This document shows, in pieces, positions 994 through 35,796 of a stretch of DNA of 40,394 nucleotides. The stretch is from a virus. Position 1 is the first letter of the stretch. Every line of letters starts with the position of its first letter. The stretch is taken from the IMG/VR virus record IMGVR_UViG_3300020442_000974, positions 1-40,394 of that record. One strand, written 5' to 3'. Below the pieces are notes generated by a model. It made no database searches. It was given only the letters and a program-made list of their open reading frames with translations, and had not been told where the DNA came from. A program made the position numbers and the translations under genes.

Positions 994-998
994 TCATA

Positions 999-1226: not shown

Positions 1227-1461
1227 AATCTTTCTTCTGGTTGCTTTGGACTAACGTTAGTAAAAGCGACTTTATGTCACTCATATCAGATTTTAACTCA
1301 GAAACCTCACTTTGTAAAGTCTCAAAGTCTTTTTCTTTTTTCTTGTCGGCATAATATGCCTTCATGAATTTATCATATTCAGATGTACTGGTGCAGTCTA
1401 TAGCACCAGATATCGTATCTTTAGCCCAACCATCTTTGTTTTCAATTGGCAATTTAGACAT
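1216..1461 (-). CDS. Small hypothetical protein, 81 aa
   Basis: The product is 81 residues. The N-terminal half (MSKLPIENKDGWAKDTISGA) has a Trp and mixed character. Residues 33-80 are a charged helix with leucine/isoleucine spacing (FETLQSEVSELKSDMSDIKS), probably a coiled coil. The ATG shares its first base with the stop of the 2,497-residue gene (TAATG), and the 3' end overlaps the 75-residue gene by 11 bases, so all three are probably translated in sequence from one late transcript. No function is recognised. Its place between a giant structural gene and a tail fibre suggests a virion or assembly role. Confidence 0.8.
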   Translation of the reverse strand: MSKLPIENKDGWAKDTISGAIDCTSTSEYDKFMKAYYADKKKEKDFETLQSEVSELKSDMSDIKSLLLTLVQSNQKKDYDD

Positions 1462-10513: not shown

Positions 10514-10521
10514 TATTTATG
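10514..10521 (-). promoter_or_regulatory. T4-type late promoter for gp8 operon
   Basis: CATAAATA on the minus strand, five bases beyond the stop codon of the 1,397-residue gene and 27 bases upstream of the gp8 start. It is identical to the octamers at 958-965 and 15973-15980. Confidence 0.8.
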
Positions 10522-14725: not shown

Positions 14726-15952
14726 TCAGCTTACAACGTTAATTTGACCCTGCATCGCAGCATGGATTGTACACTGATAATACAGTGTTCCAGGAGCATC
14801 CATTGGGACAGTCCAATATAATACAGAAGATCCACTACCAGATTGCCCCGTAGTATACGGAGTGCCCGATAAACCTTGAGTGCTCTGAATCCTAAAGGGA
14901 TGAGCACCACCAGAAACAGAATTATCAAATGCGTATGTAAACCCTCTATGAACATAGATTGTAGGATCGTTTACAGATCCAGTAAAACCAGGTCCAGAGA
15001 AAGTATAATCTGAAGATCCGTTTGCTGTGAGTTCCCACCATGTAATTGGACTTCTAGTAACAGTCCAAGAACTACCATTCCAGAATAAAGAATCACCCTG
15101 AACAATACCGCCAACATTAGTATCGGTAAGTGCAGCGAAAGTGGTTGTGAGAGAACCGTTAAAATTGATCGTTAAAGTATCGCCAGTAATCGTAGTAGCA
15201 ATATTTGTCCCGCCCGCAATAGTTAAAGTATCTGTTGCGGAATCTGCAGTAGTATTCCCTGTATCTGCCGCAATGGTAGCGAACAAATTCTGAGATCCTG
15301 CACCAGCAGCATCATCTCCAGGTAACCATTTACTCTGAGATGCATTCCATTTTAATACTTGTGTATCAGTAGGAGGTGTTGTTGTAGTATCTACATCTAC
15401 AAGATCATCAACACTAGAATATTGAGTTAATAGTGCTGCTCTAGTATCGCCTACACCACCAGTAGTAATATTAATATTTACATATGGATTATCATCACCA
15501 TCTACAGTGAAAAAATATCCAGGATATGTTGCTGCAGCTGGTGCAGCACCAACTGAAGCATATTCATTCTTATATGAAATTTTTGTCGGAAAATCAACTG
15601 TTCCAGTTGCACCATCAAAAGTCGATGTTACCGATCCTGCAGCGAGAGTAATATCACCCGTGCCATTAGAAGCAAGAGCAATGTTTCCATTAGAGCTGGA
15701 AATAATAGAATTACCATTAACATCTAGTGCTGAGGTAAGAGTGGTAAAATCTGAAGGTAAAAACGTAGTTCCGTTGTACCTCAGGACTTGACCCGTTGCA
15801 GGGTTAGTCACACTAAGACCTAAAGTAGATCCATTGCCTATGGCATTATAGATCTCATTAAAGTTATCATTGATCTTGTCACCGCCGACTCGTAAAGTAT
15901 CACCTGTATTATCATTAGCGGCGGTCCCAAGACCTAGTGTTTGTTTAGCCAT
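14726..15952 (-). CDS. Fibre-like structural protein with C-terminal cupredoxin-like domain, 408 aa
   Basis: The N-terminus (residues 6-38: LGLGTAANDNTGDTLRVGGD, then KINDNFNEIYNAIG) is a motif common at the start of marine phage fibre and structural proteins. The middle (about 50-300) is low-complexity beta structure rich in T, N, G and S (for example TDTLTIAGGTNIATTITGDT), typical of trimeric fibre shafts. The last 100 residues (about 305-405) read as a cupredoxin-like beta sandwich: GGAHPFRIQS, then VPMDAPGTLYYQCTIHAAM and QG, giving His, Cys, His and Met in the order used by type 1 copper sites. It starts 21 bases after the giant gene, under a late promoter that overlaps the giant gene's stop codon. 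It is probably a short baseplate fibre or tip protein; metal binding is inferred only. Confidence 0.85.
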   Translation of the reverse strand: MAKQTLGLGTAANDNTGDTLRVGGDKINDNFNEIYNAIGNGSTLGLSVTNPATGQVLRYNGTTFLPSDFTTLTSALDVNGNSIISSSNGNIALASNGTGDITLAAGSVTSTFDGATGTVDFPTKISYKNEYASVGAAPAAATYPGYFFTVDGDDNPYVNINITTGGVGDTRAALLTQYSSVDDLVDVDTTTTPPTDTQVLKWNASQSKWLPGDDAAGAGSQNLFATIAADTGNTTADSATDTLTIAGGTNIATTITGDTLTINFNGSLTTTFAALTDTNVGGIVQGDSLFWNGSSWTVTRSPITWWELTANGSSDYTFSGPGFTGSVNDPTIYVHRGFTYAFDNSVSGGAHPFRIQSTQGLSGTPYTTGQSGSGSSVLYWTVPMDAPGTLYYQCTIHAAMQGQINVVS

Positions 15953-15972: not shown

Positions 15973-15980
15973 TATTTATG
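15973..15980 (-). promoter_or_regulatory. T4-type late promoter overlapping the giant gene's stop codon
   Basis: CATAAATA on the minus strand contains the TAA stop (15976-15978) of the 6,606-codon gene. It lies 20 bases upstream of the start of the 408-residue gene, giving that gene and its neighbour a transcription start independent of a 20-kb transcript. Confidence 0.8.
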
Positions 15981-18900
15981 GGGTTTCTGGGTCAACTAAC
16001 TCTTCGCCATATTGACTCAGGTCTGGTGCAGTCCAATCATCAGGAACTGATGTTTCAACTACAACCTCTGGATTTTGATATCCTGTTCCAGTTGCACTAA
16101 CTTCAACAGCACCAACACCAACCAGGGCGCGGATATTACCATCAAAACCAGAGATAGAGTCGATTCTAACTGTAGGTCTAGAAGTATATCCAGAACCACC
16201 AGAGGTAATCTGAACTTTATCAATAGTACCAGAAGTAAGAAGTGCGGTTCCTCGTGCATTTTGTCCAAAGACAGAACCAAGATAATCGAAGGTAATCAGA
16301 GAGTTAGAAGATTCAATAACAGCAACTTCACGATCTTCAGTTTCACCCTGAATGTCAATAAAGTCACCCGCTTCAACAGGAGGAACAACTTCTGCTGCGT
16401 CAACGTCAGCTTCAGAACCAACGTAAGAGAATGCAACGAAGGTGGATCCAAATCTAGGAATCTCAGAGAAGATAATTCTAGAACCAACGATTTCAAAACC
16501 AACACCAGGTTCTTGAAGAACACCATTGAGAGAAACAATGATATTATTTTCTGGTCTAATTGTTGTGGATTGAACGCCTTCTGTAAGTGTTAATGAATAG
16601 AAAACATCATCACGCTTAAGGTTGAAGGATTGGCGTAAAGAGTCAAACTCGAACGAAATATCATCCAATTGTCTCAGTTTACCAACATAGAATCCTGTAA
16701 AGGATGCTCCCAGGTCAGGTGCTTCAGTGAATTGAATCTCGTCAGAGAATGCTGTATAAGCAAAAGTAGCACCAGGAGGTTGCAGAACACCGTTGATAAA
16801 GATCAACATATGACCCGCAGGATCTGGGAAGTATGGAGTTCCGTTTTCGATCGTAAGTTTGAAGTTGGTTTGTGTACCATCAAATCCACGGAAGTAACGC
16901 TTAACACGCCCCTTCAGATTTACAAGAGTCTTGATAGCACTCTTGTAAGAATCAGGACCTACGATACCGTCTCTAGAACTAAATGTTCCTCTGACATCAG
17001 AAATATACAGACGCTTATCAATACCGATAGTGCGAATATCTCTGATAATACCACTAGCAGCACCAGCAACATCAATCTTAGTGGAGACTTGCGCGTATCC
17101 AATTGGATTGAATGGATCATTCAGAGGACCATAAGATCCTACAAAATCACCGATGCCAAATGAATTGGTGCCAACCATAATGGCATAGATGAGGTTATTA
17201 TCTAAGTCAACTTCAGTAATATATCCAAAGAAGTTAGCATCTTGGAAGTTGGAATTTACTTTGTGTAATTTATCACCAACAGTAAACTGATTAAGTCCAC
17301 TTTGGACCGAGATACCCAGTCTAACATGACCAGCAGAGTTGACTCTATCACCGACTGCAACATCGAGACCATCATACTTAACAACATCAAAATACAATTC
17401 AGAGTTGTCTGGGAAGAGTGTTGCGGTCTTCTCAAATGTTCCTACAAGAGTTTCAGTATCGACTGTAAGTGAACCACCACTATTATCAAGGATAGCAGCA
17501 CTGGCTGTGAGATAACCTGTAGGAGACGCAGTATTGCCAGACGTATATCCCTTAAAGATAATATCATTAGTAAATGAACCTTTAACTTTATTGATCTGAA
17601 TTCTATCCTCAATTGCACTAATTTGAGCACTGGTAGATTGAGTAGCACCAATAATAGTATCTGTGATCGCCCATGTTCCTGCGGTCACACGAACATCAAG
17701 ATATTTAAAGTTTTCGTCTTCAGTAAATCCATAGACAACACCTGTAATTGCCGCATCACCTTGTTTCTGCACAGATTCTCCCATAGTGAAAGGACCATCA
17801 GTGATAGTTCCATCAATTCGGAATCTCTTATAAATCTGAACAATGGTGCCTTCATTGACACTAAGCGATTCAATTTCACCATAATTATCACTAGAAGTGC
17901 CATAGAGATAATCGGTATTATTAACACCACCTGCGATACCAACAGGAATAATCCTAGATCCATCTTCATAAACCTTAGATGGTACTGTAATACCATTGAT
18001 GGTTGTCAAATTAGTGTAGAAAGAATCCTGTTGCAATTGACCACGAATGATATCAAAGTTATTTCTAACTAAACGATCAATTGACTCTACGGTATAATCA
18101 CTAGAGACGGTGCTGTCGTAGAAGGAGAAGAATCCAGCATTTGTGGAAGGTGATGTAAGAGTTCCAGACAATGCAGAAGTAATGAATACTTCAAGTTCAT
18201 CAAGAATGAAATTCTTGATATTAAATTCTGCATCAGAATAGAAAATCTGACCAGACTGAGCAGTGTAAGGATCAAGAGCACCTTTATTGAGTTTATATCC
18301 CCAAGCAAAGGGTCCAAAATCTTGATTAGTGCCTTGATAGAATCCAGCACCATTAATAAAGATCTTCTTCTCAATTTCACCAAATCCAAATCCGAACGTC
18401 AAGGTCAAGTATGCACGATACCATCCATTACCGTAAGGAATAACTCCATAAGCATCTACAGTAATACCACCTTGAGGTTGGAAGATGGTGCCATAAGTGC
18501 CATCGGATAAATCAATATCAAAATACGCTTGCTGTCTTGTCGCTAAAGCATTATCGAGAGAAACTTCAAGTCTTACATTATCACCATAACTAGAACCATC
18601 ATCTTTTAAGAAGACAGAATAAGTATAAGTCTGAGTTTCTGCAGTACCTATGTTACCAGTATCAAATGTTTCTGTTCCAGAGTCGAACTTAACGTTTCCA
18701 GAGTCAAATGTCTCAAAAGCAGAGATATTATACGCTTTTGAAATCCAATGCTGTCCAATATAAAGATTAGGTTGCAATTGATCAGCAGTTTGTGTTCCAT
18801 CAGGAGCAGATCCACTAGTTCCTGTTGCAGATGCCGCGAGATTATCATTAACATCAACACCCTGTCTAACAAATCCAGCTGCAGAGAAGTTTTCTGGATA

Positions 18901-21900
18901 AGGGAACAAATTAGTAGTTGAAACCTGACCTTGAACATTTGAAGTAATGTTTCTAGCAGATTCGAGCACCTCAACGTTACCTGGTTCAGTATACCAAGTG
19001 AATCCAGTGCTAACACCACTAGAAGCGATTGTTCCTGTTCCCGCAGTTAAACCAGAAACAGTATTACCATCAGCAAAAGCAGAACCAGTTACAGGACCAA
19101 TATAAAGTTCAAGATTTTCTTCATCCCACTCTAAAATAGTTGCAGTTCCACCACTACTAGAAATTGCAGTTTCACCGACAATATAAGATCCACCACTGAA
19201 TCCAGTAAGAGTAATTTTTTGTGCCGTTGTCTTCTTCTTAACATCAGTTGTAATCGAGTCATGAACAATATTGTTGATCATTTCATCAACAAAACTGTTG
19301 TATACATAAGCACCTGAACCAAATTGAGAATTAACAACATTTGTCAATTCTTCTTTATAATAATTCAAGTTATAAAGAATATTCTTAGATGCACTTCTAG
19401 CAACTTTATCACCAGGTGCGAGAATATCTACTGCAATTTCTACAAGTTCACGCATTCTCCAAACAACTTGATTAATATCTGTAGTAGATTCGGAATCGCG
19501 ATATGCTTCTTCGTTTGTGTATTGTGCAGCGTACTGATTTCCAGTTACAGAGTTACCTTGAGTATACAATTCATTTCTGATTGCTCGCTCAGCAAGAATC
19601 TTAATTTTCTCAACAGAGAACACTGTTGCGAGAAGTTCATCTTCAACATGATTTAATGTGCCATCAGAAGTTAGATAAGTTTCAATTGCTGCAATTGTGC
19701 TATTATTACCGCCAGTTTGAAGGTCGGAAATAATACCCAACATAATTAGTTTCAAATCTCTTTGACACTTAGTTTCCCCTGCAGTTCCACCAGGATAAGA
19801 GAAGGCACTATAAGGAGTTCCGTTCAAATCATAGGTAAACTCATTGGTAGTCATACCAGTGATTTCTTCAGCGATATACTGACGGTTGAAATACAATCTA
19901 TCGCCACCAACATTAAAGTCCTCTCCAGTAGGAGCAATAATATCATTGATTGTTGTAACCAAGGTATCAATTGCAGACTTGACATTGGCGCATCCGCCAG
20001 CATCATTAGTAATACCCCAATCACCAACAATAAGATTATCTGTGTTTGTATCATCGAGATCACCAGTAATCGCTTGCTTAGCATAGTATGCTAAACGTTC
20101 ATGAGCGTATACAGACTGCCAAACTTGTAAGCGAATATGCAGAAGTTCTCCGCTTCCACCAATGTAGAATTTCGCTGCTTGAACAGTATCTTCATTACCA
20201 CCACGCTCAATATCATTAGCGATTGCATCCAAGATGAGACCCAAATCAGTCTTACAACGTAAAGTACCATCTGTGCTGCCACCATTTTGGTTTCTAGGCA
20301 TATCCTGAGCAAGAGAGGGATATCTAGAAAGCATATCAGCAGCCGCTTTATCTACGATAGCGCCACGATTAACTCTAATCAGACCAGAAGCGTCTCTGAA
20401 TCTATATTGTGCATCTTCATCAATTTGATTGGTATAAATTTCATCATCACCAGCACTATGATAATCCACGGTGAATGGAGTCTCACTAAATGCATCTACT
20501 GTTCCACCAAGTGACTCAACTGCAGGAGAAACTTTAGTGACACTTGCCAGGTGATCAACAGGAGTGGATGCATTTGCATTAGTTAAAGTATCGGTAAGAA
20601 TATCAAGAAGGTTTTGAGCAGTAGACCAAACATCAGCACAATCTGAAAGACTGTAATCAAGAACAACAACTGCATTAGACAGAGCAGAAACATATGTGTG
20701 AGCATATTGTTGATTTACAGGAGATGCACCAACATTTACTGTGATTGTAGTCTGGGAAACTGCAGTAATTGGCAGAACTGCATTATTTGCTGGGTCGGTG
20801 GAGCGAGGATATGCAATCTGACGCTCATTACCATCATCATCACAAGTGAATGTAATACCACCAGTCAACAATCTAACTCTATTAGCAGTAGTAAGAGAGT
20901 GTGATCCAATTGTAATTACCAAATCACCCGTAGCAGCATCATAAGTAGCACCCGTAGGTGTAAATTGGTTCAATACACCAGTAGTAGAATCGGTGATAGT
21001 TGCATCAGTGAATTGCGTCAATCCATGAGAACCTTGAACTGTCCAAAGAACATTGTTAATGACATATTGAATCATATCATTAACTTTTTCGTAAGCGAAT
21101 AATGTTTCTCTAATTTCGCCTTCAATATAAGACAAGGCAACAGGATTCTGAGTTCTATCAACATAGAATGCAGCAGCATCCCACATATGATTATTAGAAC
21201 CATTTCTCAAGTCTTGTACTAATGCGTTCAGAATGTCGCGAATATCATCCTCACAATTAACTCTTTGATCGGCAATGACACTGTTATCAACTGCAGAGAC
21301 AAATGTGTGGACATACGCACCACCAGTAATAACAGCATCAGTCTCAGCACTAACGAATGTATGTGCATATTGATCATTTGCGCCAGAGACACCAACATTA
21401 ACAGTTACTGTTCCAGTTTGTTTAATCAGAGCACCAGAAGTCGCAGAAACAAAGGTATGAGTAGACGTATCACTAGAGACACCTACGTTAAGAGTAATAG
21501 TATTAGTGGTAACACTTTGAATCTCAACCCATTCGCCCCTAATAGGATCAGTTTGTCTAGGATATGTGTGATTTGTAGCGTTACTATCATAAGCACATGT
21601 AAAGGTTAAAGAATTATCAGCAATCTGAATTCTATTACCAGCAGACAATCCATGACCGTTTGAAGTAATTACCAATTCACCTGTTGTGGGGTTATAAGTT
21701 GCTCCCGTGATATCGGCGGTTGTAGTACCAACAGCAGTTACTGCAATTGTAGTATTATATGATGGGTCTGTGGAACGGGGATATGTGTGTTGGGACTGAT
21801 TACTGTCTTGATCACAAGTGAATGTAAATCCACCTGTCTTAAGTTTTAATTTGGTTCCCGTATTAATGGTGTGGTTTGCAATTGTCATTACAAAATCACC

Positions 21901-27900: not shown

Positions 27901-30900
27901 GTTATTAACTGCAAGATATACTTTATTATTAGCGGTATCTTGAGAGATAATATATCCACTATTAACAAAACTAGATCCATTACGCAGAACTAATTTAGTT
28001 CCAACAGTAAACTTGAACGACTGGTTAATGGTAAGTTCCTGAACATTATCAATTTTAATTGTCGGAGCAACTTTGAAATAGTACTTGTTTTTAACATTTG
28101 CAGTCGCCTTCAGTTTCTGAGATCCAGGAGAAGGAACCGTTGCGGTTCTTGATCCCCAAACATCTTGAGCGTATGTAAGAGCCTCAGTATCTTGAGGCAT
28201 GTTAATCGAAGCATCATCAAAGTCAAGATTCTGGAATCCAATTGCTGCGAGAACAGCACCAGATGTGCTAACAGTAAGACTAGAACCAATTACAGGAGTA
28301 ATAGCAGTTCGGACAAAACCAACTCCAGTATTAGTTTGTGCTGCATAAGTTCCAATTCTAGCAGCAAGAGCATCTTTATCTGCCTTCAATCCCCAACCAT
28401 TATAATCAATATAATCATATCTGTTAAGGTTTGTAGTAAACCAAGCATCATCAACCCAGTCAAAAGTTAATCCAAATGCACCTGCTGTGGGGAATGCTGT
28501 TACATCAGAAGGAACTGTGGGAGTTAGTGCTCTATTTCTCAATCTCAGATTGGTAACAATATGCTGTCCTTGCTCATTACTACGGAATTGACCCGTAGTT
28601 CCACTTCTACCAGGAATATTACCAAAGTGTAAATCCTTTCCACCAAGGGCAGTGTTGGTGACAGATCCAGTAAAGACCTGAAGACCATTTACATATCCAG
28701 TAAAAGTATCACCGACTTTCTTAAGTCCAATAAATTGCCAGGTATTATCAGCATACATTGTTGTTAATGTAGACTGAAGTGCAGAACCTGCTGCATTAAT
28801 AGTAGTGGAGTTATTAGTAACTACTAACTGCAATTCTCCGCTACTAACATCATAATACATCCAGAGACCACCAGTAGTATCAGTAGCATCACCGATAGCA
28901 AATAAAGTTTCTTGAGTCTGTGATAAAGTTCCACTATTACTGGAATCTTTATACAGCATGTACTCAATAGTAAAGTCACCTGCTAATTTAGTTCCTAACT
29001 CAGCAGCGGTAAATTTAATATTGGTATTTTCCCAGTTCGAGGGTTGAGCAACATCATAACCAAAGAATTGAGCCTTACCATCAGTAACTAGAATACCTTG
29101 ATTACTAGTTCCTGTAACTACGGGTGTATAGTGAGTTGTAATGTCGGAAGTTGTTGCTCCAGCAAACGTTACAAGGAATTCATTTCTATTCCAAGAAGAT
29201 TGTCCGAAAGCATAAACATCACCCGAATTATCGGCAGTAACAGACTTAACTGTAATACCTTCAATATTGTTCTTATTAAACTCATTAGATGTATGATTTT
29301 TAATTTTACCATCATATCCAAGTTTAACAGTTTCAACAGTTTTAAGTTGATTTGTAGAATTAACCTTTGTCAGAGCAACATTTAAATCACCGAAAATGTC
29401 GATATTGGATCTAGGTGCCATTGTAATGGTGCTACCTGTCAAATAACGATAATTCCAGAGCAAATCACCATTAGTATTAACCTTACCTACCCAGAAACTA
29501 TCCTTTGTAGTATCATCAGACTTCAATCTCAATGTTGCACTAATATATGCCTCATCAAACTCATCCACTACCATGGAAGTGTCCATGAAGGAATATAATG
29601 TATTTGTATAGTTCTTAACCCATTCAATTGCAATGCTAGATGTAGACAATATTGCCTTACCAAAAGAAACATCAATATCAGCAGCATTTGCTGTAGATGC
29701 AGATTCCATGGTGAAGTAAATATCATCACCAACTTTTTCCATAGCAGTCAATTTCTCAGAACCGCTAGAAGATGCAACTTTTCTCTTGGCAACAAAACTG
29801 CCAGTAGTATCAACAACTCCAATAAAGGCATCATATGGATTAGTGGAGTTAGTATTTGTAAATCCACCAATAACAACTCTAGTATCAGAGTACTTAAGGA
29901 CAGAAGTAATTCTATCTTCACGAGAAGAACCAGAAATACCAGCATATCCTCTCTGATATGTGAGAGTTGCACTTAATCCATTATCTGCCTGAACATACTT
30001 TGCAAGGTAAATATCAGGATTATAAGAATCCAAAATTGAAGCATTTGGTTTATTTTCACCAACAATCCAGATATCATTACCATCAACAGCAAGTTTGATA
30101 TGTTCTGTGCTGAAAGTTCCTGTTCCGCTTTCTAAAGTCTTCTCCCATTCCTTTAAACCAGTAGAAGATAGTTTTGCTAAGAAACCAACTCCGTTACCAC
30201 CAGCATCCTTTGTTCTACCACAAATAAATGTTTCTTTATCAGCGTTAGTGAAACTATCATTAATAACTAAATCATCATTGTTATCGATAGTAGAAACAAA
30301 ATAATCTGCTTTCTTAAAGACCTGTGGGTGAGAAATAATAACTCTTGGATTTGTAGTATACGAAGAACCCGAGTTAATAATATTAACTGTATCAATCGAT
30401 CCAACGCTGGTTACAACTGCCTGAAGACTTGCAGAATTACCATCACCATCTAAAGTAATGACAGGGGGAATATCACTGTTATATCCAGATCCAGTTTGAG
30501 TAATTACAACTTCCTCAACACCTTTAAGTTGACGAACAACAAATGTTTTGTTCGTATTATTCATGATAGGTGTGTAATCAACATACACCGTATCACCAAC
30601 AATCAAATTATGTGGATTAGATGTTTGAAGAATACCAAAATTATCTCCACTGACGTTTTCAAAATTATAACTGGAAACAGTCTCACCTTTAATTCTAGAA
30701 ACTCTAGCAGAGACACCAGTACCATCAGTATCCGTATTATCGAACACTAAACGGTCATTGACTTGATAAGAAATTCCAGGGTTTTCAACTGTAAACCCAG
30801 TTACACTAGCATCTTCAAATTTAGTAATTGTTTCAACTTCAATATCAACCTTAGAGTCAAATTTGACTTTGGGGAAATAGTCAAACAATTGTAATGGAGA

Positions 30901-33900
30901 CTCTTCAAAGATTTGATCAGGATCATCAATCTCTGCTTGATCAATGACACCGCTCCTATCTTCGTCTTCCACTTCAAATAACAAATTATCACCATTCTCT
31001 AATGTCAACGCATTAGTAGATGCGTTAGGAGCACGCTCAACGTCAATATCAACATTTTCATAAGGGTCACGATAACGGACAACACCAGTAGGAATATTTT
31101 GCTGAACTGCAGTTGCACTTAAGTTCCACTTATCGACAACTGAATTATAACTAGGACCAAGAATATATGGGAATACTGCATTACCTTGTTCAGTATTATC
31201 AATAGTTACAAAATAGCAATATCTACCAGTTGGGAATTGTGGTGTCTTACAGAAACGACCGTTATATTGATCAAGATCACCTAAACCAAAAACATATTCA
31301 TAATCTTCAACAAATCTACCCGCTGCTTCATCGGTCAATAAAGGACCAGCAGTTCTAACAGGATATGGATTTGTTTGTGCATCAAAAATCAAAGTGGGTT
31401 TAACACGATATGAAGAATTCAATCGAGTAATAGTAGATCCCTGATCTGTAGGATCTTGATATCCATAAGGACCGTAAATGGGGTTGCCATCAAACGCCCA
31501 TCCAATAATCGGGGAGTGTTCCAGAGAATCATTTTGCTCTAGAGTTTGACCAATTGTACTGCCAGTCTGACTAATATAAAGGTTGTCTCCCAGGATATAA
31601 CGTAATCTCTGAGGATTTGAAAGGTGAGCATATTCACCACCATATTGATTATTAAATCCTTCAAAAACACTACCCTTAGCAGAATCAATAGTAGCAGTTT
31701 CTTGTAAGTTATAAGTCCACTGGAAGACAGTGGCATCAAACAAAGCATCTTGACCAACTGCAGTCAGATTAATAACAGTCGTTCCTTGAGAATATCCAAT
31801 ACCTCGGTTAACAATTTCAATACCAGTAACTCTGCCAGCATTCTCACCATCAGTATCAATTGTTGCACGAGCAACCGCACCAAAACCATCACCCTGAATA
31901 CCAATTTCAGGTGCAGTAGTATACCCAGATCCAGCAGAGATGATAGCGATCGAAATAATACGACCATTTTGTACAATTGCTTGTGCAACTGCACCAGAAC
32001 CAGAACTCAATACAACACTGGGTTTAGATGTATAAGATGCACCACCGTTAGTTACTGATACACTCTTAATAGGACCACGAACTTCTGCAGTTGCTGTAGC
32101 ACCCGTTCCACCGCCTCCAACAATAGTAATGGAAGGTTGTGAAGTGTATCCTGTTCCACCATCGTTAATCAGAACTCTAGATACAACACCTTTAGTGATA
32201 ATTGCAGTTGCTGCTGCACCTGATCCGCCGCCACCGACAATTGAAATTAGAGGAGAAGATGTATATCCACTTCCACCATCAGTTACAACAATTTCACTGA
32301 GAGATCCATTAACAACTACTGATGCGGTAGCACCAGATCCACCACCACCACTAATCGTAATTGCTGGTGGTGAAGCAGCATCATAATCTTTACCTGCGTT
32401 AGTGATAGCAACATCTGTTACAGCACCAAAAGTCTTTTTATCAGTAGACTTATATGACCAAGCAGAAACACCATTAATCCAAGTTCCAATAGGACCAGAA
32501 CTAATCTCATTCTTAGTAGAGATAGTAGTTGCCAATCTGGGGAATCTGTTCAGTTTTCTCTGGTTGCCAGGAAGGAGTGCCGATCCAGGGAAAGGTCCAA
32601 TATTATAGTTTGGAATACCAGTAGATGCCACATACACATAATCATCATTAAAGAACGAGTTTTGAATGTTCGTAGTATATGGAGAAATAGTGTTATTGAT
32701 AGCAGCAGTTTCCGACTTACCTTTATTAAGGTCAATAGATACCAGAATATTTCCCTGAGGAACGACTGTAGCGGGTTGTGGTAATTGATATTGGAAAACT
32801 GTAGTGCTATCTCTAGAAGTTACTAGGAACGTTCCGTTATAGATGATTGGATTTGCACCGTAGATAGTAACCTGGTCACCAACCAAAAGACCATGTGGAT
32901 TACTACAAGTTACAGTTGCAGATCTATTATTAATACCACCGAAAGTAATTGAAGAAATTTCAATCAGTTTTTTAACATTATACAACCAAGTATTCAATTC
33001 AGGTTGAGTTCCTGTTCCACCCAATTTTGAAATCGTTAATTTATCACCAGGAAGATAATAAGATCCAGTATCTGTAAGAGTTGTCTGTTGAGCATCAACA
33101 ATACCAACAACGTTCATTACAACTTCTTGAGAAGTTCCTTTGTTAATAAAAACTCTAAAGTTAGAAGATACCTCAGTTGCAGAATCCCAATCTTCAACGA
33201 TACCATTTACTGAACGTGTACATTCAATAAACTGGTTAAGAGATTTTTCTTTATATTGAACAACTTCACTATTACCAATTAAGAATTCACCATTTCTTTC
33301 TGGCCAACCAATTGTAGAGTCAACTGTAATAATACTATCTTCAGTTCCAAGAGGTTCAGCAAGTTTTGTTTTATAAGGAACCGTAAAAGAACCTGTAATG
33401 GTTTCTTCAGACAATACCAATTCGTAAATATCTGTCTCAGAAGTTCTAATTGCAATATAGTTTTCAACAAGAGCACTAGCCGCTTGAATATTTGGATCGG
33501 CAATATCTAAATCTTGCTGTAAAAGACCGTCTTGAATATCAACAGGATTACCACTAACTAAAGTAGCACGCAGAATAGTATCAATAGACCAAGTTGCGGC
33601 AGATGGTTTAATGATCTGATCTTTTGGATATGAAATGCTTACCTGTTCGCCATAAAGAAGCTTAAACAGATAAGAAATACTGAAACTAGTTCCCTTAGTG
33701 GAATAGAAATCTTTGATCGTCTTAATTGCATTACGAACATTAATTTCTTTGTAATCTAATTCAGGAACATCAGGTAAAAACTGTTCGGTATACTTATCTA
33801 ACAAACGTTTGACAAAAAGTGCATCCAGACACTTTACTTCGGTATCCAGAGATGCAGATACTGCAGTAGTATCATTTGAGAAAACTGCATTACCATCCTC

Positions 33901-35796
33901 AGTATATGAGGTAATACCACTAGCAGCTCTAGCACACCCAACAAATTGTGCTTTTTGATATCCAGTACCAGAAAGGTTTACGGTAAATCCCGTAATCTCA
34001 TTCAGACCAATTTCAGCAGATGCCTTTGCTTGTGGGGGATCCTGAATGACAATGGTAGGTGGATTTGCCGAAGAATACCCAGCACCGAATTCGGTAATAT
34101 TAATATCCGTAATTCTACCATTAAAAATAGCAGCAGTTGCTTTAGCACCTGTGCCACCAGCATAATTACCTTGACCATCAACTCTATTATCAACAATAAA
34201 AACAGAGGGGATATCATCATATCCACTACCACCGCTTAAAAGTTCGATATTAGTAACTCTACCATTAGAGTCAACAGTGGTTTCTAAAACTTGAGCACCA
34301 ACAGGATCAACAATTGCAACTCTAGGGGTAGTCTCGTATCCCTGACCAGCATTTAAAATTGTAATCGAAGTAACCTGACCATCAGTCAAATTTGCTCGAA
34401 GTGCGGCGCGAATTCCATTCTCACCAGTAGGTTCATCAATATAAACTGTAGGTGCTGTAGAATACCCTTGACCGCCATTAGTTACAGTAATAGTACCACT
34501 AAGAGACCCCGCAAGAATTTGAGCAGGTCCTAAAGTAGCGCCACCAGGTTGTGTAAAAGTAATTCTAGGGGTAAAAGTATACCCACTACCAGAACTAAGC
34601 GTTTCTAGACCCGTTACAGAACCGTTGGTAACGGTTGCTTTAAGAACAGCAGGTTTAGAACCACTTTTTGTGGGAGTTTGAATAGTAACTGTTGGTGGGT
34701 TGGTATCACTATAACCCTGACCACCTTCCAGAAGTGCAAGATTCTTAATACCATTAACAAGAGCGGTTGCAGATCCACCACCACCAGTTGTAGAATTAAT
34801 AGAAACCTGAGGAGGATACTCAAAACGATATCCAGATCCAGTATTGTTGATGGAAATACTGCTTAACTCGCCGTTATCGTTTACCCTAGCATATCCAACT
34901 GCATCATTACCAAACGAAGGGATAGGTGCCTCAACCGAATACAGAGAAAGGAATCTACCATTGATGGGAGCATTGGCAAAGATAAATTTATCGCCATCGA
35001 TGAAGAAATCAACTTTAGGAACTAATAATGTATTATCATATACAGCAAGAACATATTCATCAACAATAGGTTCATAAACATTACCATTTCTGGTAAGTTT
35101 AAATTCAACTTTATTATCACCAAATGCACCAGAAAGGTTATCGATAGCAACAATAGTATTTTCTACAAAACCATTCAGATATGTAATATAAGTAGCAACG
35201 CTGTCATCAGAAGGTAATCTGGTTCTAGGTGCATTAGTGAATACAATATCAGTACCAGAGACAGTATAATCGACTGCAGGAATTAATACTTCACCATAAA
35301 CACTTACAATCAAATGCTGTGCGGACGGAGGAGCAATTGGATTGTCTTGAGACGTTAAACCAAAACTGGTAGTAGAACCGTCAAATAAATCGATAGGAGA
35401 TGCTAAATTTGTCCACTTAAGTTTTACCTGCTCATAAGAGATACCAGGGGACAGAGCAATATTAGGAGAACTAGTGGTGCTCTCGTAATAGATGACCTCA
35501 TCACCGATTAAAATCGATCCATTTTCAGATAAAAACTGTTCAATACTTTCTACAACAATTTTTGTAGACTTATCAGTAATTGCTTCTACAATTTTTGTCT
35601 TTCCATCAAGGATACCGATGTCCAATTTATCGATATCAAGATAATTTAAGAAATTATTGATAATATTTTGACCAGCACCCGTTTTTTCTTGGGACTGATA
35701 ATAATACTCCAGAAATCTATTAAAAAGAGGATATTCCTCTTCAAGAAAATTCGGAGATTGTTGGACAATCGATTGAGATACCTTGTTAATATTCAT
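15976..35796 (-). CDS. 7: Giant gp7-like baseplate wedge protein, 6,606 aa mosaic
   Basis: A single uninterrupted frame of 19.8 kb (roughly 700 kDa) starts at an ATG preceded by AAGAG, eight bases after gp6. Residues about 656-736 contain DFYSTKGTSFSISYLFKLLY, matching T4 gp7 (DFYSTKGIEASYKFLFKVLY). Residues about 3442-3500 (YAVKSAVSIDEWKEILIKN, then VHPASFKVFGEL) resemble the following VHPVGF block of gp7. T4 gp7 is about 1,032 aa. Other regions, by approximate residue: NGVLQ-type beta units 138-292, 3550-3645 and 6300-6465; GSGY repeats 300-617, 1126-1343, 3000-3247 and 6519-6572; YHYH-like 1420-1555; propeller-like 1833-2240; LamG-like 2258-2425 and 4175-4330; Cys/YPR repeats 4074-5035; helical repeats 4846-5415. 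It lies between genes 6 and 8, as gene 7 does in T4. The gp7 assignment rests on two blocks and synteny; the rest is probably surface-exposed binding domains. Confidence 0.85.
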   Translation of the reverse strand: MNINKVSQSIVQQSPNFLEEEYPLFNRFLEYYYQSQEKTGAGQNIINNFLNYLDIDKLDIGILDGKTKIVEAITDKSTKIVVESIEQFLSENGSILIGDEVIYYESTTSSPNIALSPGISYEQVKLKWTNLASPIDLFDGSTTSFGLTSQDNPIAPPSAQHLIVSVYGEVLIPAVDYTVSGTDIVFTNAPRTRLPSDDSVATYITYLNGFVENTIVAIDNLSGAFGDNKVEFKLTRNGNVYEPIVDEYVLAVYDNTLLVPKVDFFIDGDKFIFANAPINGRFLSLYSVEAPIPSFGNDAVGYARVNDNGELSSISINNTGSGYRFEYPPQVSINSTTGGGGSATALVNGIKNLALLEGGQGYSDTNPPTVTIQTPTKSGSKPAVLKATVTNGSVTGLETLSSGSGYTFTPRITFTQPGGATLGPAQILAGSLSGTITVTNGGQGYSTAPTVYIDEPTGENGIRAALRANLTDGQVTSITILNAGQGYETTPRVAIVDPVGAQVLETTVDSNGRVTNIELLSGGSGYDDIPSVFIVDNRVDGQGNYAGGTGAKATAAIFNGRITDINITEFGAGYSSANPPTIVIQDPPQAKASAEIGLNEITGFTVNLSGTGYQKAQFVGCARAASGITSYTEDGNAVFSNDTTAVSASLDTEVKCLDALFVKRLLDKYTEQFLPDVPELDYKEINVRNAIKTIKDFYSTKGTSFSISYLFKLLYGEQVSISYPKDQIIKPSAATWSIDTILRATLVSGNPVDIQDGLLQQDLDIADPNIQAASALVENYIAIRTSETDIYELVLSEETITGSFTVPYKTKLAEPLGTEDSIITVDSTIGWPERNGEFLIGNSEVVQYKEKSLNQFIECTRSVNGIVEDWDSATEVSSNFRVFINKGTSQEVVMNVVGIVDAQQTTLTDTGSYYLPGDKLTISKLGGTGTQPELNTWLYNVKKLIEISSITFGGINNRSATVTCSNPHGLLVGDQVTIYGANPIIYNGTFLVTSRDSTTVFQYQLPQPATVVPQGNILVSIDLNKGKSETAAINNTISPYTTNIQNSFFNDDYVYVASTGIPNYNIGPFPGSALLPGNQRKLNRFPRLATTISTKNEISSGPIGTWINGVSAWSYKSTDKKTFGAVTDVAITNAGKDYDAASPPAITISGGGGSGATASVVVNGSLSEIVVTDGGSGYTSSPLISIVGGGGSGAAATAIITKGVVSRVLINDGGTGYTSQPSITIVGGGGTGATATAEVRGPIKSVSVTNGGASYTSKPSVVLSSGSGAVAQAIVQNGRIISIAIISAGSGYTTAPEIGIQGDGFGAVARATIDTDGENAGRVTGIEIVNRGIGYSQGTTVINLTAVGQDALFDATVFQWTYNLQETATIDSAKGSVFEGFNNQYGGEYAHLSNPQRLRYILGDNLYISQTGSTIGQTLEQNDSLEHSPIIGWAFDGNPIYGPYGYQDPTDQGSTITRLNSSYRVKPTLIFDAQTNPYPVRTAGPLLTDEAAGRFVEDYEYVFGLGDLDQYNGRFCKTPQFPTGRYCYFVTIDNTEQGNAVFPYILGPSYNSVVDKWNLSATAVQQNIPTGVVRYRDPYENVDIDVERAPNASTNALTLENGDNLLFEVEDEDRSGVIDQAEIDDPDQIFEESPLQLFDYFPKVKFDSKVDIEVETITKFEDASVTGFTVENPGISYQVNDRLVFDNTDTDGTGVSARVSRIKGETVSSYNFENVSGDNFGILQTSNPHNLIVGDTVYVDYTPIMNNTNKTFVVRQLKGVEEVVITQTGSGYNSDIPPVITLDGDGNSASLQAVVTSVGSIDTVNIINSGSSYTTNPRVIISHPQVFKKADYFVSTIDNNDDLVINDSFTNADKETFICGRTKDAGGNGVGFLAKLSSTGLKEWEKTLESGTGTFSTEHIKLAVDGNDIWIVGENKPNASILDSYNPDIYLAKYVQADNGLSATLTYQRGYAGISGSSREDRITSVLKYSDTRVVIGGFTNTNSTNPYDAFIGVVDTTGSFVAKRKVASSSGSEKLTAMEKVGDDIYFTMESASTANAADIDVSFGKAILSTSSIAIEWVKNYTNTLYSFMDTSMVVDEFDEAYISATLRLKSDDTTKDSFWVGKVNTNGDLLWNYRYLTGSTITMAPRSNIDIFGDLNVALTKVNSTNQLKTVETVKLGYDGKIKNHTSNEFNKNNIEGITVKSVTADNSGDVYAFGQSSWNRNEFLVTFAGATTSDITTHYTPVVTGTSNQGILVTDGKAQFFGYDVAQPSNWENTNIKFTAAELGTKLAGDFTIEYMLYKDSSNSGTLSQTQETLFAIGDATDTTGGLWMYYDVSSGELQLVVTNNSTTINAAGSALQSTLTTMYADNTWQFIGLKKVGDTFTGYVNGLQVFTGSVTNTALGGKDLHFGNIPGRSGTTGQFRSNEQGQHIVTNLRLRNRALTPTVPSDVTAFPTAGAFGLTFDWVDDAWFTTNLNRYDYIDYNGWGLKADKDALAARIGTYAAQTNTGVGFVRTAITPVIGSSLTVSTSGAVLAAIGFQNLDFDDASINMPQDTEALTYAQDVWGSRTATVPSPGSQKLKATANVKNKYYFKVAPTIKIDNVQELTINQSFKFTVGTKLVLRNGSSFVNSGYIISQDTANNKVYLAVNNNSWSNDLNLGLLSTEQFSEQSTYGIVGPIPNDINEIASFTFPQINNTTPGTFDIDLNDFNHPEGGSNNLDELAKFKPYSDDDYSIRIDEISGSSTFIPGSVININSGDISFNAAYTTAQITNLTGVLKITLIANLQKTLQATAVANSDLVYIITGTRHYLSEGEMIFIDGNPSQEVGGVVYDEYDGSFPVNTVVSPLEFTYKLPQAAVSNPATSAGSVNVFVKSPVLKMYYGHQYLFDVSHSSLAGGNLSFSKDNLNKLEYSFNSIERVGTPGVTGQGVPTPTVKLKVDRNIVTNISYYFDPSRTGDDSPVTTGSYLDVVDSPYVGTFTISGVSGATITRGADTIKFPLVNEPEGAADIIQASYSTSSVKAVGSISDVRIVNPGGFYTRLPVVTTISSNRQIERVQINEPGTEYAVGTYNSVPIAGDGEGGFVRITVADGTDDEGVNIPGQIQEVVVTSPGKGYTTASIDIEAIDGILGAGLTGSGAELDVVIPAFGSGASIFTKGTNVGKIKKLKNNNFGYDYPHDYTLRPEITFPINAQLTSTSILSSITVTDPGSGYSQAPAVIITGGGGSGATAVASIKNGRLDQIEVKDPGAGYSSTPSVSLRSSFNYVVNLDLGLLQFAFPHGIPNGSEVTLNVVDTGEGTEFPLASGAIGRLNGNTTYYAIAGTANSLEPDQLKLAITAANAALGDAITFSNAGTGRQQVLTESFGGAATANVITSTFLEGELVYQGDSFETATAQGFVSTNNGWQVGPRVLKIVDYTGDFIEGQRITGVISKSSGVISDLNIAKGVLEIGSITRTTGQFIDDVGKPSEIIQKIQDSYYYQDFSYAVKSAVSIDEWKEILIKNVHPASFKVFGELNLNEYGSIPNKETDFELTKSVELAREAIVPNIQSFSLVEPIYSEFNNTEVLFRQKRLTSSENILTSVVQRLDDISNLFDGVRISFPLTVDGDNIVANANQLMIILNGVVQTPGVAFEIQGDSIVFAEPPAPPASVKYVNIQIEQIDIDTYTFTNQSGIFPNVGNTMVGSQSGARLTVTNVIGDTIEGFVTEGTFIANELVNVSATGFNANLGTITPITNLGLFVFGEQVKNFDNDTAKVEQINLDRGQETPLGQLRYSIGPSTTSVEIIASGSQNAETAPPTGTFIAGKSYQFGSEIVLVTNIVENNDYTQLTVTRGTQGTTAVSHLEDLPVYGTEINVTNALTLSKTAGTYQSTPGLYDIQLNDIIIGAQSRVVARVTATAVYTDPATNAAIGQVNISDGSSFSGLLFNRIAAQTYPNIVLDNISESQINLVDFADNSTAIDSQFPSNEIVSTNIIPYDNASGALTDGEVIRNYKISYGNNSGDFGISEPARIRKLAFKNRIGEGFFAAGQVIRTRDTKAEVIGYNQAKGTIYLGKIGRTQSNGQDYHAITFTNATINTYNQKYGTGCLALSPGVAPHTFVSGVTDAITAGNGASGQFTAATGTTYDPATGLLVLEIGTHSLTTSNTVTIADDGVVFTCAQDNNTTNKAYPRSTDTASGSALAISATTSTTITVNVGAVPIDEYVSIPSSAEFGVATGNYTIEFWVKPFTTSLSGTKTLVDMRAAGATEVAGRLYLEAGQVRWNSNGSDLVTSGLTTLSNDVWSHIAVSRTGTTAKIFINGAEVGTGTDSSNYGAKPIRIGANYAGSEVLAGYIDDFRFSNNARYTATFVAPTGIVQGDTNTRLLIHFDGSYGQTYTEDWSGAEGFTNGEDFNNDAILRTTNANGSAVVTGFTGNSQRYYDAANLIVANSDFIKKEVVDQMRTRYPELVVPGTRYTPTGATYDATTGLLSMTVSGNLLTNGGNVTPNSATYNAATGALVITAYGHSVTNGQKINIKVGGIRFTCTQDSNASNHDYPRATDPAAGAWLTVSNVTTNTFEVNVGASPSGQQYTHTFVSAVTNCITIQKDRIKINDNALTFTCSSDNDQTQVTYPRVTDPASKQVALPVVSASANNLTVNVGTSPFVYFQPSNATYDPATGDFVMTIANHTINTGTKLKLKTGGFTFTCDQDSNQSQHTYPRSTDPSYNTTIAVTAVGTTTADITGATYNPTTGELVITSNGHGLSAGNRIQIADNSLTFTCAYDSNATNHTYPRQTDPIRGEWVEIQSVTTNTITLNVGVSSDTSTHTFVSATSGALIKQTGTVTVNVGVSGANDQYAHTFVSAETDAVITGGAYVHTFVSAVDNSVIADQRVNCEDDIRDILNALVQDLRNGSNNHMWDAAAFYVDRTQNPVALSYIEGEIRETLFAYEKVNDMIQYVINNVLWTVQGSHGLTQFTDATITDSTTGVLNQFTPTGATYDAATGDLVITIGSHSLTTANRVRLLTGGITFTCDDDGNERQIAYPRSTDPANNAVLPITAVSQTTITVNVGASPVNQQYAHTYVSALSNAVVVLDYSLSDCADVWSTAQNLLDILTDTLTNANASTPVDHLASVTKVSPAVESLGGTVDAFSETPFTVDYHSAGDDEIYTNQIDEDAQYRFRDASGLIRVNRGAIVDKAAADMLSRYPSLAQDMPRNQNGGSTDGTLRCKTDLGLILDAIANDIERGGNEDTVQAAKFYIGGSGELLHIRLQVWQSVYAHERLAYYAKQAITGDLDDTNTDNLIVGDWGITNDAGGCANVKSAIDTLVTTINDIIAPTGEDFNVGGDRLYFNRQYIAEEITGMTTNEFTYDLNGTPYSAFSYPGGTAGETKCQRDLKLIMLGIISDLQTGGNNSTIAAIETYLTSDGTLNHVEDELLATVFSVEKIKILAERAIRNELYTQGNSVTGNQYAAQYTNEEAYRDSESTTDINQVVWRMRELVEIAVDILAPGDKVARSASKNILYNLNYYKEELTNVVNSQFGSGAYVYNSFVDEMINNIVHDSITTDVKKKTTAQKITLTGFSGGSYIVGETAISSSGGTATILEWDEENLELYIGPVTGSAFADGNTVSGLTAGTGTIASSGVSTGFTWYTEPGNVEVLESARNITSNVQGQVSTTNLFPYPENFSAAGFVRQGVDVNDNLAASATGTSGSAPDGTQTADQLQPNLYIGQHWISKAYNISAFETFDSGNVKFDSGTETFDTGNIGTAETQTYTYSVFLKDDGSSYGDNVRLEVSLDNALATRQQAYFDIDLSDGTYGTIFQPQGGITVDAYGVIPYGNGWYRAYLTLTFGFGFGEIEKKIFINGAGFYQGTNQDFGPFAWGYKLNKGALDPYTAQSGQIFYSDAEFNIKNFILDELEVFITSALSGTLTSPSTNAGFFSFYDSTVSSDYTVESIDRLVRNNFDIIRGQLQQDSFYTNLTTINGITVPSKVYEDGSRIIPVGIAGGVNNTDYLYGTSSDNYGEIESLSVNEGTIVQIYKRFRIDGTITDGPFTMGESVQKQGDAAITGVVYGFTEDENFKYLDVRVTAGTWAITDTIIGATQSTSAQISAIEDRIQINKVKGSFTNDIIFKGYTSGNTASPTGYLTASAAILDNSGGSLTVDTETLVGTFEKTATLFPDNSELYFDVVKYDGLDVAVGDRVNSAGHVRLGISVQSGLNQFTVGDKLHKVNSNFQDANFFGYITEVDLDNNLIYAIMVGTNSFGIGDFVGSYGPLNDPFNPIGYAQVSTKIDVAGAASGIIRDIRTIGIDKRLYISDVRGTFSSRDGIVGPDSYKSAIKTLVNLKGRVKRYFRGFDGTQTNFKLTIENGTPYFPDPAGHMLIFINGVLQPPGATFAYTAFSDEIQFTEAPDLGASFTGFYVGKLRQLDDISFEFDSLRQSFNLKRDDVFYSLTLTEGVQSTTIRPENNIIVSLNGVLQEPGVGFEIVGSRIIFSEIPRFGSTFVAFSYVGSEADVDAAEVVPPVEAGDFIDIQGETEDREVAVIESSNSLITFDYLGSVFGQNARGTALLTSGTIDKVQITSGGSGYTSRPTVRIDSISGFDGNIRALVGVGAVEVSATGTGYQNPEVVVETSVPDDWTAPDLSQYGEELVDPETP
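19565..21256 (-). repeat. Three helical repeats within the giant protein
   Basis: Three copies of about 65-70 residues begin near 21253, 20254 and 19772. Each opens with Cys-x2-Asp (CEDDIRDILNALVQDLRNG, CKTDLGLILDAIANDIERGG, CQRDLKLIMLGIISDLQTGG). An Asn-containing turn follows, then a second helix pair (A-x3-Y, then E-x2-T-x-F-A-x-E-K-like residues, then AI). They are the only strongly helical parts of the C-terminal half of an otherwise beta-rich protein. Linkers before copies one and two share R-Y-P-x-L motifs (RTRYPELV, LSRYPSLA). Confidence 0.7.
20690..23590 (-). repeat. Cys/YPR beta repeats, six copies, within the giant protein
   Basis: Six units carry C-x2-D-x-[ND]-x5-YPR-x-TD: CAQDNNTTNKAYPRSTD (near 23390), CTQDSNASNHDYPRATD (22300), CSSDNDQTQVTYPRVTD (22070), CDQDSNQSQHTYPRSTD (21815), CAYDSNATNHTYPRQTD (21597) and CDDDGNERQIAYPRSTD (20848). 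Most units also have G-A-T-Y-D-x-A-T-G-x-L-x-I before and I-T-V-N-V-G followed by YAHTFVSA after. The spacing in the tandem part is about 75-85 residues. A LamG-like domain lies between copies one and two, and a helical repeat between copies five and six. I do not recognise a named family. Confidence 0.75.
22800..23260 (-). other. LamG-like jellyroll domain (second copy) in the giant protein
   Basis: Residues about 4175-4330 read as a concanavalin/LamG fold: YTIEFWVKPF, a glycine-rich turn, NDVWSHIAVSRTGTTAKIFI followed by NGAEVGTG, then AGYIDDFRFSNNARYT. These are the usual landmarks of the LamG/concanavalin-like class, which typically binds glycans or serves as an adhesion module. Confidence 0.75.
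26065..26780 (-). repeat. Glycine-rich GSGY repeats, third array, in the giant protein
   Basis: Residues about 3000-3247 hold repeats of the form valine-rich strand, [DN]-P-G-x-G-Y, P-x-V or P-x-I strand, then GGGGSGATA (for example DPGSGYSQAPAVIITGGGG and DPGAGYSSTPSVSL). The first units (NPGGFYTRLPVV, EPGTEYAVGTY, SPGKGYTTASI) are more divergent. The array ends about 195 residues before the second gp7-like block. Confidence 0.75.
28530..29010 (-). other. LamG-like jellyroll domain (first copy) in the giant protein
   Basis: Residues about 2258-2425 contain GDFTIEYMLYKD, GLWMYYDVSSGELQLVV, NTWQFIGLKKVGDTFTGYV followed by NGLQVFTGSV, and TNLRLRNRALTP. This is the same order of landmarks as the LamG-like unit at 22800-23260, but the two copies are strongly diverged. 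Confidence 0.7.
29080..30310 (-). other. Beta-propeller-like region in the giant protein
   Basis: Residues about 1833-2240 consist of repeated blades of the form D-x-[ILV]-x-[ILV]-x-G-x-T followed by [AG]-[FK]-[VL]-x-K-[LV]-[DNS]-x2-G-x-[LFK] (ETFICGRTKDAGGNGVGFLA, RVVIGGFTN, DSFWVGKVNTNGDLLW, DVYAFGQSSWN). This resembles SBBP- or NHL-type propellers. The number of blades cannot be set by eye. Confidence 0.6.
31130..31530 (-). other. YHYH-like domain in the giant protein
   Basis: Residues about 1420-1555 contain HSPIIGWAFDGNPIYGPYG, then LDQYNGRFCKTPQFPTGRYC and VFPYILGPSYNS, the conserved skeleton of the YHYH family. The namesake Tyr-His-Tyr-His is YCYF here. Confidence 0.75.
31770..32420 (-). 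repeat. Glycine-rich GSGY repeats, second array, in the giant protein
   Basis: Residues about 1126-1343 hold six regular units of about 35 residues: NAGKDYDAASPP, DGGSGYTSSP, DGGTGYTSQP, NGGASYTSKP, SAGSGYTTAP and NRGIGYSQG. The first three are followed by strands ending in GGGGSGA or GGGGTGA. This is the most regular of the arrays and is directly upstream of the YHYH-like domain. Confidence 0.8.
33945..34895 (-). repeat. Glycine-rich GSGY repeats, first array, in the giant protein
   Basis: Residues about 300-617 hold eight units marked by NTGSGY, EGGQGY, SSGSGY, NGGQGY, NAGQGY, SGGSGY, EFGAGY and LSGTGY, each followed by a proline-containing strand such as STAPTVYIDEP or DDIPSVFIVDN. The array lies just before the first gp7-like block. 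Confidence 0.8.

Follow-up and report, generated by a model that had tools for sequence, protein, structure and literature searches.

T4 gp7 (1032 aa; PDB 5IV5, 5HX2) is encoded after gp6, and Pfam assigns to it a helical domain (643-689), domain V (766-861) and domain VI (920-1012). Gp17 of Vibrio phage XM1 (242 aa) is described as a gp7 orthologue to which receptor spikes attach at an internal loop of domain I and at the C-terminus, each place holding one spike (PMC10457771). Gp31 of phage A-1(L) is a wedge subunit with an inserted domain, and one of its two copies is reported to hold a long tail fibre (PMC10966104). Both resemble the giant protein described here, but the XM1 spikes are separate proteins, and the A-1(L) insertion is only about 100 residues long and lies in the two-copy (gp6-type) subunit.

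For cyanophages, gp7 is mentioned among the non-cyanophage core genes (PMC3037559) and is said to be absent from pelagi- and cyanomyophages, apparently substituted by VrlC (PMC7029224). In S-SM1, S-SSM5, Syn9 and S-TIM4, the gene after gp6 encodes a giant protein of 6,076-6,603 aa (PHROG 701 / T4-GC969), which the four records name 'virion structural protein', 'structural protein', 'hypothetical protein' or 'putative fiber'. T4-GC969, which is SSM1_102, the 6,180-aa gene after gp6 in S-SM1, was reported in purified S-SM1 virions (PMC3037559). S-SZBM1_208 (6,619 aa, 724 kDa) was likewise reported in virions, with 71 peptides and 13.5% coverage; it already bears a gp7-type name, 'baseplate wedge initiator', with no demonstration of the core in the accessible text of that study (PMC9146016). 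The protein examined here is, as judged from its sequence, one more member of this widespread and known family. No statement of a split gp7 core in a giant cyanophage protein was found in the accessible parts of the open-access literature, and what appears to be new is that the giant is the missing cyanophage gp7, that its core is doubly split, and that a fixed insert stands against a variable arm.

The giant gene and its neighbours

The window, that is, the whole stretch of DNA analysed, is the virus record IMGVR_UViG_3300020442_000974 of 40,394 bases; it is probably a genome fragment, so the uniqueness of gene 7 was assessed in relatives. The 6,606-residue frame from which the study started is intact: it is a single uninterrupted gene of 6,606 codons with an ATG start and no internal stops, and begins 7 bases past the gp6 stop (Table 1). 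On the minus strand, the order is gp25-like gene, gp6-like gene, giant, 408-aa gp9/gp10-like gene, 1,397-aa gene, gp8-like gene, a gene of 2,497 aa at the VrlC position and, at 3-920, a frame which is cut by the window end and has side matches to tail-fibre families. The same order is found in S-SSM5 and S-SM1 over the stretch compared. The giant thus lies directly behind gp6 in the gp25-gp6 cluster; gp6-gp7 adjacency is also seen in T4 and, by annotation or position, in 22 other loci carrying a giant-type gene. The initial annotation had placed the gene exactly between 6 and 8, which is incorrect, as the 408-aa and 1,397-aa genes separate it from the gp8-like gene; a direct 6-7-8 order is found in T4 and, by position, in Pelagibacter phage HTVC008M.

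Cores of the T4-type late-promoter motif ATAAATA (PMC2984593) lie on the minus strand at 958-964, 10514-10520 and 15973-15979, each a short distance in front of a gene (starts at 920, 10486 and 15952); the giant gene has none directly ahead of it. The scan of the window gave 4 motifs, three of them near gene starts, against 12.8 expected, i.e. fewer than chance. Neither the Rfam nor the tRNA scan gave a match in the window.

Table 1. Genes around the giant and parts of the giant protein
Feature	Residues	Position	Strand	Evidence or remark
gp25-like baseplate wedge gene		37828..38247	(-)	phrog_261 and phrog_43 (baseplate wedge subunit); position of genes annotated gp25
gp6-like baseplate wedge gene		35804..37828	(-)	phrog_219, E 2.4e-212; position of genes annotated gp6
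Giant gp7-core protein, 6606 aa	1-6606	15976..35796	(-)	open frame without stops; PHROG 701; DNA match over residues 1-3932
Core block N, helical, SPNF..YPLF.RFLEYYY	3-57	35626..35790	(-)	PF23786 positions 6-52, below cut-off; profile matches only the gene after gp6
First insert	58-646	33859..35625	(-)	G.GY repeats of ~40 residues at 309-613; 0 to ~114 residues in shorter relatives
Core block A, DFYSTKGT..LFKLLYGE	647-800	33397..33858	(-)	PF23786 164-221, below cut-off; PDB gp7 chains by family profile
Second insert	801-3400	25597..33396	(-)	near-constant length in close relatives; mean pair identity 0.71
YHYH domain, in second insert	1354-1534	31195..31737	(-)	PF14240, 108.5 bits (cut-off 25)
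Beta-propeller with apparent inserted lectin-type sandwich	1845-2480	28357..30264	(-)	AlphaFold2 pLDDT 83.8
Core block B, QKIQDSYYYQ...HPASFKVFGE	3401-3520	25237..25596	(-)	PF23786 235-280, below cut-off; T4 gp7 863-892 by hhalign
C-terminal extension	3521-6606	15979..25236	(-)	mean pair identity 0.50
~85-residue repeat array	4067-5045	20662..23598	(-)	self-comparison in windows
LamG/ConA-like lectin domain	4177-4319	22840..23268	(-)	PF13385, 75 bits (cut-off 27.6)
Hypervariable zone	~4350-4950	20947..22749	(-)	mean pair identity 0.05-0.40 per 150 residues
GTA spike-fibre-like domain	~5710-5840	18277..18669	(-)	NF048003, 45.6 bits (cut-off 36)
Conserved C-terminal end	6301-6606	15979..16896	(-)	mean pair identity 0.78-0.85 over 6301-6600
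408-aa gp9/gp10-like wedge/fibre connector gene		14726..15952	(-)	PF07880 T4_gp9_10_N, 40 bits; phrog_677
1397-aa baseplate gene		10526..14719	(-)	phrog_708; no N/A/B matches; S-CAM22 counterpart labelled 'gp7'
gp8-like baseplate wedge gene		8954..10486	(-)	phrog_438; S-SSM5 gene of same size annotated gp8

The gp7 core and its three blocks

The gp7-like part of the giant consists of three blocks, N, A and B, which together amount to about 330 of the 6,606 residues. This core is interrupted twice, by ~590 and ~2,600 residues, and is then extended by 3,087. Each block has one sole Pfam match (E up to 5; 24,736 families), the baseplate wedge family PF23786, and the three sub-matches are successive within its 284 positions, with 15.3-21.5 bits each; the best score of the window is 26.4 bits (residues 1-1600) against a curated cut-off of 27 bits. 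Blocks A and B are only 14 positions apart in PF23786, and therefore a form of the core with A and B unseparated exists as a family.

Several comparisons bear on the identity of these blocks. First, block seed profiles were run on 3,329 stop-to-stop frames of at least 60 residues from 24 loci and the window, where the window and the four or five relatives contained in the seeds match by construction. N and B matched 23 genes (E at most 2.4e-7 and 3.4e-8, respectively), and A matched the same 23 genes and T4 gp7; the matched gene always followed gp6 or the baseplate wedge gene occupying the gp6 position. Among all other frames, the best values were E 0.31 (A), 0.76 (B) and 0.22 (N), and an S-PM2d stretch without the giant gene had no block matches. 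In the same set of frames, T4 gp7 scored E 5.8e-6 with A and 0.28 with B, and its block N was not listed at E up to 1. Second, a 17-member profile of block A had gp7 chains as its top PDB matches (E 1.5e-5 and 2.1e-5; next CD81, 0.017), and gp7 was the sole match of the block B profile (E 0.12 and 0.21). Family profiles were needed because residues 1-1000, searched as a single sequence against the PDB, reached gp7 at no better than E 0.22-0.23; when whole pieces were compared with Pfam, NCBIfam and PHROGs, the matches were mainly to modules common to other proteins. Third, hhalign aligned the short-homologue family with T4 gp7 644-826 (E 2.7e-9), block A at 6.3e-8 and block B at 8.4e-5. Fourth, the score of block A on T4 gp7 (22.6 bits) was reached by none of 2,000 gp7 shuffles, that of B (7.2 bits) by 2 and that of N (4.6 bits) by 6 of the same number. 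The block matches are thus more than chance. N, A and B were found in this order in all of the 94 proteins searched (91 distinct), which comprise the window, T4, 22 other named-phage proteins and 70 IMG/VR proteins, N and B of T4 being individually weak.

The fold of the core was modelled on a short homologue (Melnitz-3-identical, 896 aa, 59 sequences), not on the window's own, far-apart blocks. AlphaFold2 gave a mean pLDDT of 62.8, poor in the core helices (~30-70) and good in the insert domains. In Foldseek, gp7-type chains took ranks 1-3 among 350,542 chains, namely 9f4a_A0, 5iv5_BJ and 5hx2_A (E 4.3e-6, 6.2e-5 and 2.2e-3; next 0.042), with TM-scores of only 0.07-0.08; 5hx2_A is named gp7, and the other two are taken as gp7 from their length and aligned range and because their entries hold gp7. 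VIA-align placed model residues 180-669 on T4 717-893 in one alignment spanning A and B (Z 8.9), with an rmsd of 17.6 over 145 residues, as the parts are placed differently. The VIA matches to gp7 ranged over Z 8.8-8.9 and rmsd 16.6-18.0, and a T4 sheath fragment was nearly equal at Z 8.7; the rows below gp7, this fragment included, match the inner domains of the short homologue (model 238-320 and others).

The gp7-core identity of the giant is well supported, and its similarity to T4 is modest. Both proteins follow gp6 and have the core blocks in the same order. Because domain V lies between A and B, the split site is occupied in T4 too, although the occupant is small there and huge in the window: 103 residues separate the A and B matches in T4 and 2,600 in the window. 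Unlike in the giant, the large part of T4 gp7 (~640 residues) precedes block N, and neither a lectin nor a YHYH family matches T4 gp7 at E up to 0.1. The domains V, VI and helical of T4 gp7 (PF21427, PF21456, PF21428) are in turn absent from the window at E up to 0.01, so the protein is classed, on sequence grounds, with those that share the gp7 core and not with T4-type gp7 carrying these domains.

The initial annotation had quoted two motifs and given a spacing of about 150 residues for them in T4. DFYSTKG...LFKLLY is indeed found from residue 696 and HPASFKVFGEL from 3484, T4 gp7 has DFYSTKG at 733 and HPVGF at 884, and profiles assign both blocks to the gp7 core. The split put there at about 2,700 residues is the A-B insert of ~2,600. 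The third core block (N), the second split of ~590 residues and the 3,087-residue tail after B were all missed, and the site of the split is filled in T4 as well.

A separate gene 7 was not found in the 15 complete relatives, the window itself being a 40-kb fragment. The block A profile gave exactly one match per genome in 15/15 complete cyanophage genomes, always the gene after gp6. The T4 gp7 family phrog_964 matched in 13 of these genomes, once each and only in the giant, and in T4; S-PM2d and S-WAM2 are the two without a match, and 1 of 14 control genomes matched as well. A second gene named 'gp7' in S-SSM7 (L002 24069-28738, ~3,001 aa), two genes past the core-bearing one, was considered as a paralogue and rejected, since it has no N, A or B in the part covered and block A occurs once in the S-SSM7 genome; its label looks doubtful.

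Inserts, C-terminal extension and their variation

The additions to the core consist of several kinds of module. Besides the first insert, G.GY repeats occur in the second insert (1122-1340, 1760-1820 and 3142-3280) and near the C-terminus (6511-6583). For the YHYH domain, a role as metal-dependent hydrolase has been predicted (PMC7824862). From the model, residues 1845-2480 seem to form a beta-propeller closed by the last strand, with a lectin-type sandwich inserted. Its best VIA match is the CylK propeller (Z 38.8, rmsd 3.6, 356 aligned), and Foldseek returns trypanosomal sialidases (E 4.5e-13, rmsd 17); this likeness is one of shared fold and shows no enzyme activity. The region also has a weak profile match to neurexin LNS domains (E 0.0011), with no stretch passing alone. 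The LamG domain is present in 7/7 relatives scanned, and its region has a PDB profile match to an S-layer domain-containing protein (E 1.2e-8). Folds of the carbohydrate-binding type are represented by LamG, above its cut-off, and by the propeller with its weak LNS match, and the adhesion-like modules proposed at the outset are supported by profiles and fold models. The 1,397-aa neighbour shares YHYH and repeat-module matches with the giant, and modules therefore seem to move among baseplate genes.

Conservation was calculated for 10 full-length relatives, the window included, as mean pair identity with gaps counted against. The values are 0.75 for N, 0.63 for the first insert, 0.78 for A, 0.71 for the second insert, 0.83 for B and 0.50 for the extension; along the latter, identity falls to 0.05-0.07 at 4501-4800 and climbs again toward the conserved end. 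Gaps reach 75% in the hypervariable zone. In the same ten phages, the neighbours gave 0.65 (gp6), 0.58 (gp25), 0.68 (408-aa protein) and 0.92 (gp8, five of them). The A-B insert measures 2,598-2,697 residues in the 52 of 80 IMG/VR loci where both anchors were found, and the stretch from block B to residue 5090 measures 942-3,171 residues in 62 of the 80. The best local matches in all 80 loci show a milder valley, with identity 0.45-0.51 at 4351-4950, and the low identity after block B is partly due to gaps and repeat number. S-SM1, S-SSM5 and S-TIM4 share about 75% DNA identity with the window over residues 1-3932, and it is mainly after block B that the window diverges from the giants of this family.

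The length-variable, lectin-bearing part is thus that after block B, and the A-B insert is not the most variable. Since the A-B insert is near constant and the stretch from B to 5090 is length-variable and less conserved, the part that looks host-facing and diversifying would lie after B, and not between the two blocks noted at first. The earlier idea of a gp7 core wedge subunit with thousands of added residues is accordingly retained for the split core and the adhesion-like modules, and corrected as to which addition varies most. Some ocean relatives (L060:10358-19873, L066:10355-19183 and L100:10352-18019) carry ~1,000-1,600 residues more than the window between B and 5090; in these extra stretches, no Pfam family is above cut-off beyond a single LamG domain.

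The family is widespread. Megablast with residues 1-3932 found 249 phage records, whose names all begin with Synechococcus, Prochlorococcus or 'cyanophage'; tblastn found 475 records with residues 1-802 and, with block B (residues 3371-3520), 468 phage records, among them Pelagibacter, Methylophilales, Caulobacter and Pseudomonas phages. PHROG 701 matches near end-to-end, five overlapping pieces covering 1-4069, 4308-5059 and 5148-6134 of 6136; its label 'head and packaging' is not informative. Labels of homologues vary among the rows shown ('hypothetical protein', 'virion structural protein', 'baseplate wedge protein', 'baseplate wedge initiator').

At this one locus, the protein ranges from 767 to 8,573 aa. 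Melnitz-3 (896 aa), HTVC008M (1016 aa), Caulobacter phage Cr30 (767 aa) and Sinorhizobium phage phiN3 (1006 aa) have N, A and B in a gene at the position after gp6, but their A-B inserts are only 285-717 residues and their extensions 1-210. The A-B gap is 103 residues in T4, 285 in Melnitz-3, 428 in HTVC008M, 469 in Cr30 and 717 in phiN3; it is 969 in S-CRM01, 1,452-1,509 in S-WAM2 and S-PM2d, 2,059-2,144 in S-SSM7, S-T4, S-CAM7, Bellamy and P-TIM68, and reaches 2,600-2,701 in the window group together with P-RSM6. Between N and A, proteins of the phiN3 type have no insert, and lengths elsewhere run through ~80-114 up to ~590 residues; the C-terminal extension goes from 1 residue in phiN3, 27 in Cr30 and 1-48 in most phiN3-type proteins through 295-559 in three to 3,087 in the window. 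The P-RSM6 orthologue (NC_020855, L012 from 19977), a frame of 8,573 aa, is the largest seen.

A proposed covalent adhesin arm and the alternatives

The giant is in all probability a gp7-type wedge protein of a marine T4-like cyanophage, and the reading that it carries a covalent adhesin arm is, with the adhesin role deduced from its modules, the one we consider likely. Folded together with two gp6 subunits, N, A and B would form the scaffold of the wedge, which holds gp25 and, via gp25, the sheath. By homology and by the description of XM1 (PMC10457771), the helix-turn-helix in the core bundle of (gp6)2-gp7 would come from N, and the parts around the trifurcation from A and B. Loops of about 590 and 2,600 residues would leave the core between N and A and between A and B, respectively, the latter, with G.GY repeats, YHYH domain and beta-propeller with lectin-type sandwich, forming a fixed body. 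Past B would come an arm of 3,087 residues with the LamG lectin domain, the repeat array of variable length, the fibre-like domain and the conserved end. By touching the host surface, the variable arm would couple binding covalently to the sheath-triggering wedge. The heterotrimer with gp6, the six copies, the host contact and the triggering are all presumed here.

The large cyanophage additions look like additions at the same two places as the XM1 spike sites, but fused, and therefore lend support to a covalent adhesin arm that would pull directly on the wedge; we infer, rather than align, the equivalence of the XM1 loop (80-106) with the A-B site. It is also conceivable, though doubtful, that the main receptor-binding apparatus is built into the wedge, as six covalent arms of ~0.7 MDa each (scaled from the S-SZBM1 protein) at the places where the XM1 spikes dock, so that arm binding pulls the core bundle which starts sheath contraction. 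A wedge position would assign a place in the machine to a protein that is among the largest in the virions of common ocean viruses and is left unnamed in many records, and the distinction between a fixed-length insert and a variable lectin-bearing arm makes the question of how marine T4-like cyanophages bind testable on a defined piece of protein.

Alternatively, the protein may have the gp7 core while its inserts and extension are mainly architectural, as a baseplate skirt or wedge brace, with host contact made by separate fibre genes, a possibility that we regard as real and clearly less likely. The near-constant length and 0.71 identity of the A-B insert are in keeping with it, as are the modules which the 1,397-aa and gp8-like neighbours have in common with the giant and which suggest common structural material. 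The surface array on the baseplate rim, which the initial annotation set against an architecture with separate fibres, is hypothetical: other fibre-like genes are reported in related phages (PMC6224464, PMC9910659), and the window has the gp9/gp10-like gene and the frame at 3-920 with its side matches to tail-fibre families. In S-TIM4 a separate YadA-domain fibre-like gene was mutated during adaptation (PMC6224464). Eight particle-protein genes with assigned function were mutated in that study, all but two tied to tail fibres and baseplate, and its main text, where accessible, does not name the orthologue of the giant (PMC6224464). However, LamG and a stretch of 942-3171 residues of low identity after B are typical of host-facing parts, and S-SZBM1 virions are reported to show no long tail fibres (PMC9146016), both of which argue against this alternative.

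That the giant is instead a tail fibre standing after gene 6 by chance, gp7 having been lost and replaced by VrlC, is very improbable. The Syn9 record does carry the note 'putative fiber', most residues lie outside the core, and the VrlC substitution has been proposed for cyano- and pelagimyophages (PMC7029224). Three ordered gp7 blocks, and T4 gp7 as top profile and fold match, stand against a mere fibre; VrlC coexists with the giant, the VrlC-like frame of the window is unmatched by the N, A and B profiles, and S-SZBM1_203 gives only E 0.03 and 0.065, at ~1 bit or less. At the level of sequence, the published statement that gp7 is absent (PMC7029224) is contradicted by the core in these genes, HTVC008M included. 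Product names assign gp7 to other genes in S-CAM22 (the one in the 1397-aa place) and in S-SZBM1 (the 615-aa S-SZBM1_205). It is hardly credible that S-SZBM1_205 or the window's 1397-aa neighbour is the true gp7, since N, A and B are unmatched in both, and in the whole S-CAM22 genome block A matches only the giant.

The core-bearing protein of S-SZBM1 is S-SZBM1_208, which carries N, A and B. The same three blocks are found in S-PM2d081 (3,048 aa), the giant-type gene of S-PM2d, for which a nonsynonymous change was reported during coexistence with the host; it is one of 33 early nonsynonymous changes, and some early alleles were present beforehand (PMC9910659).
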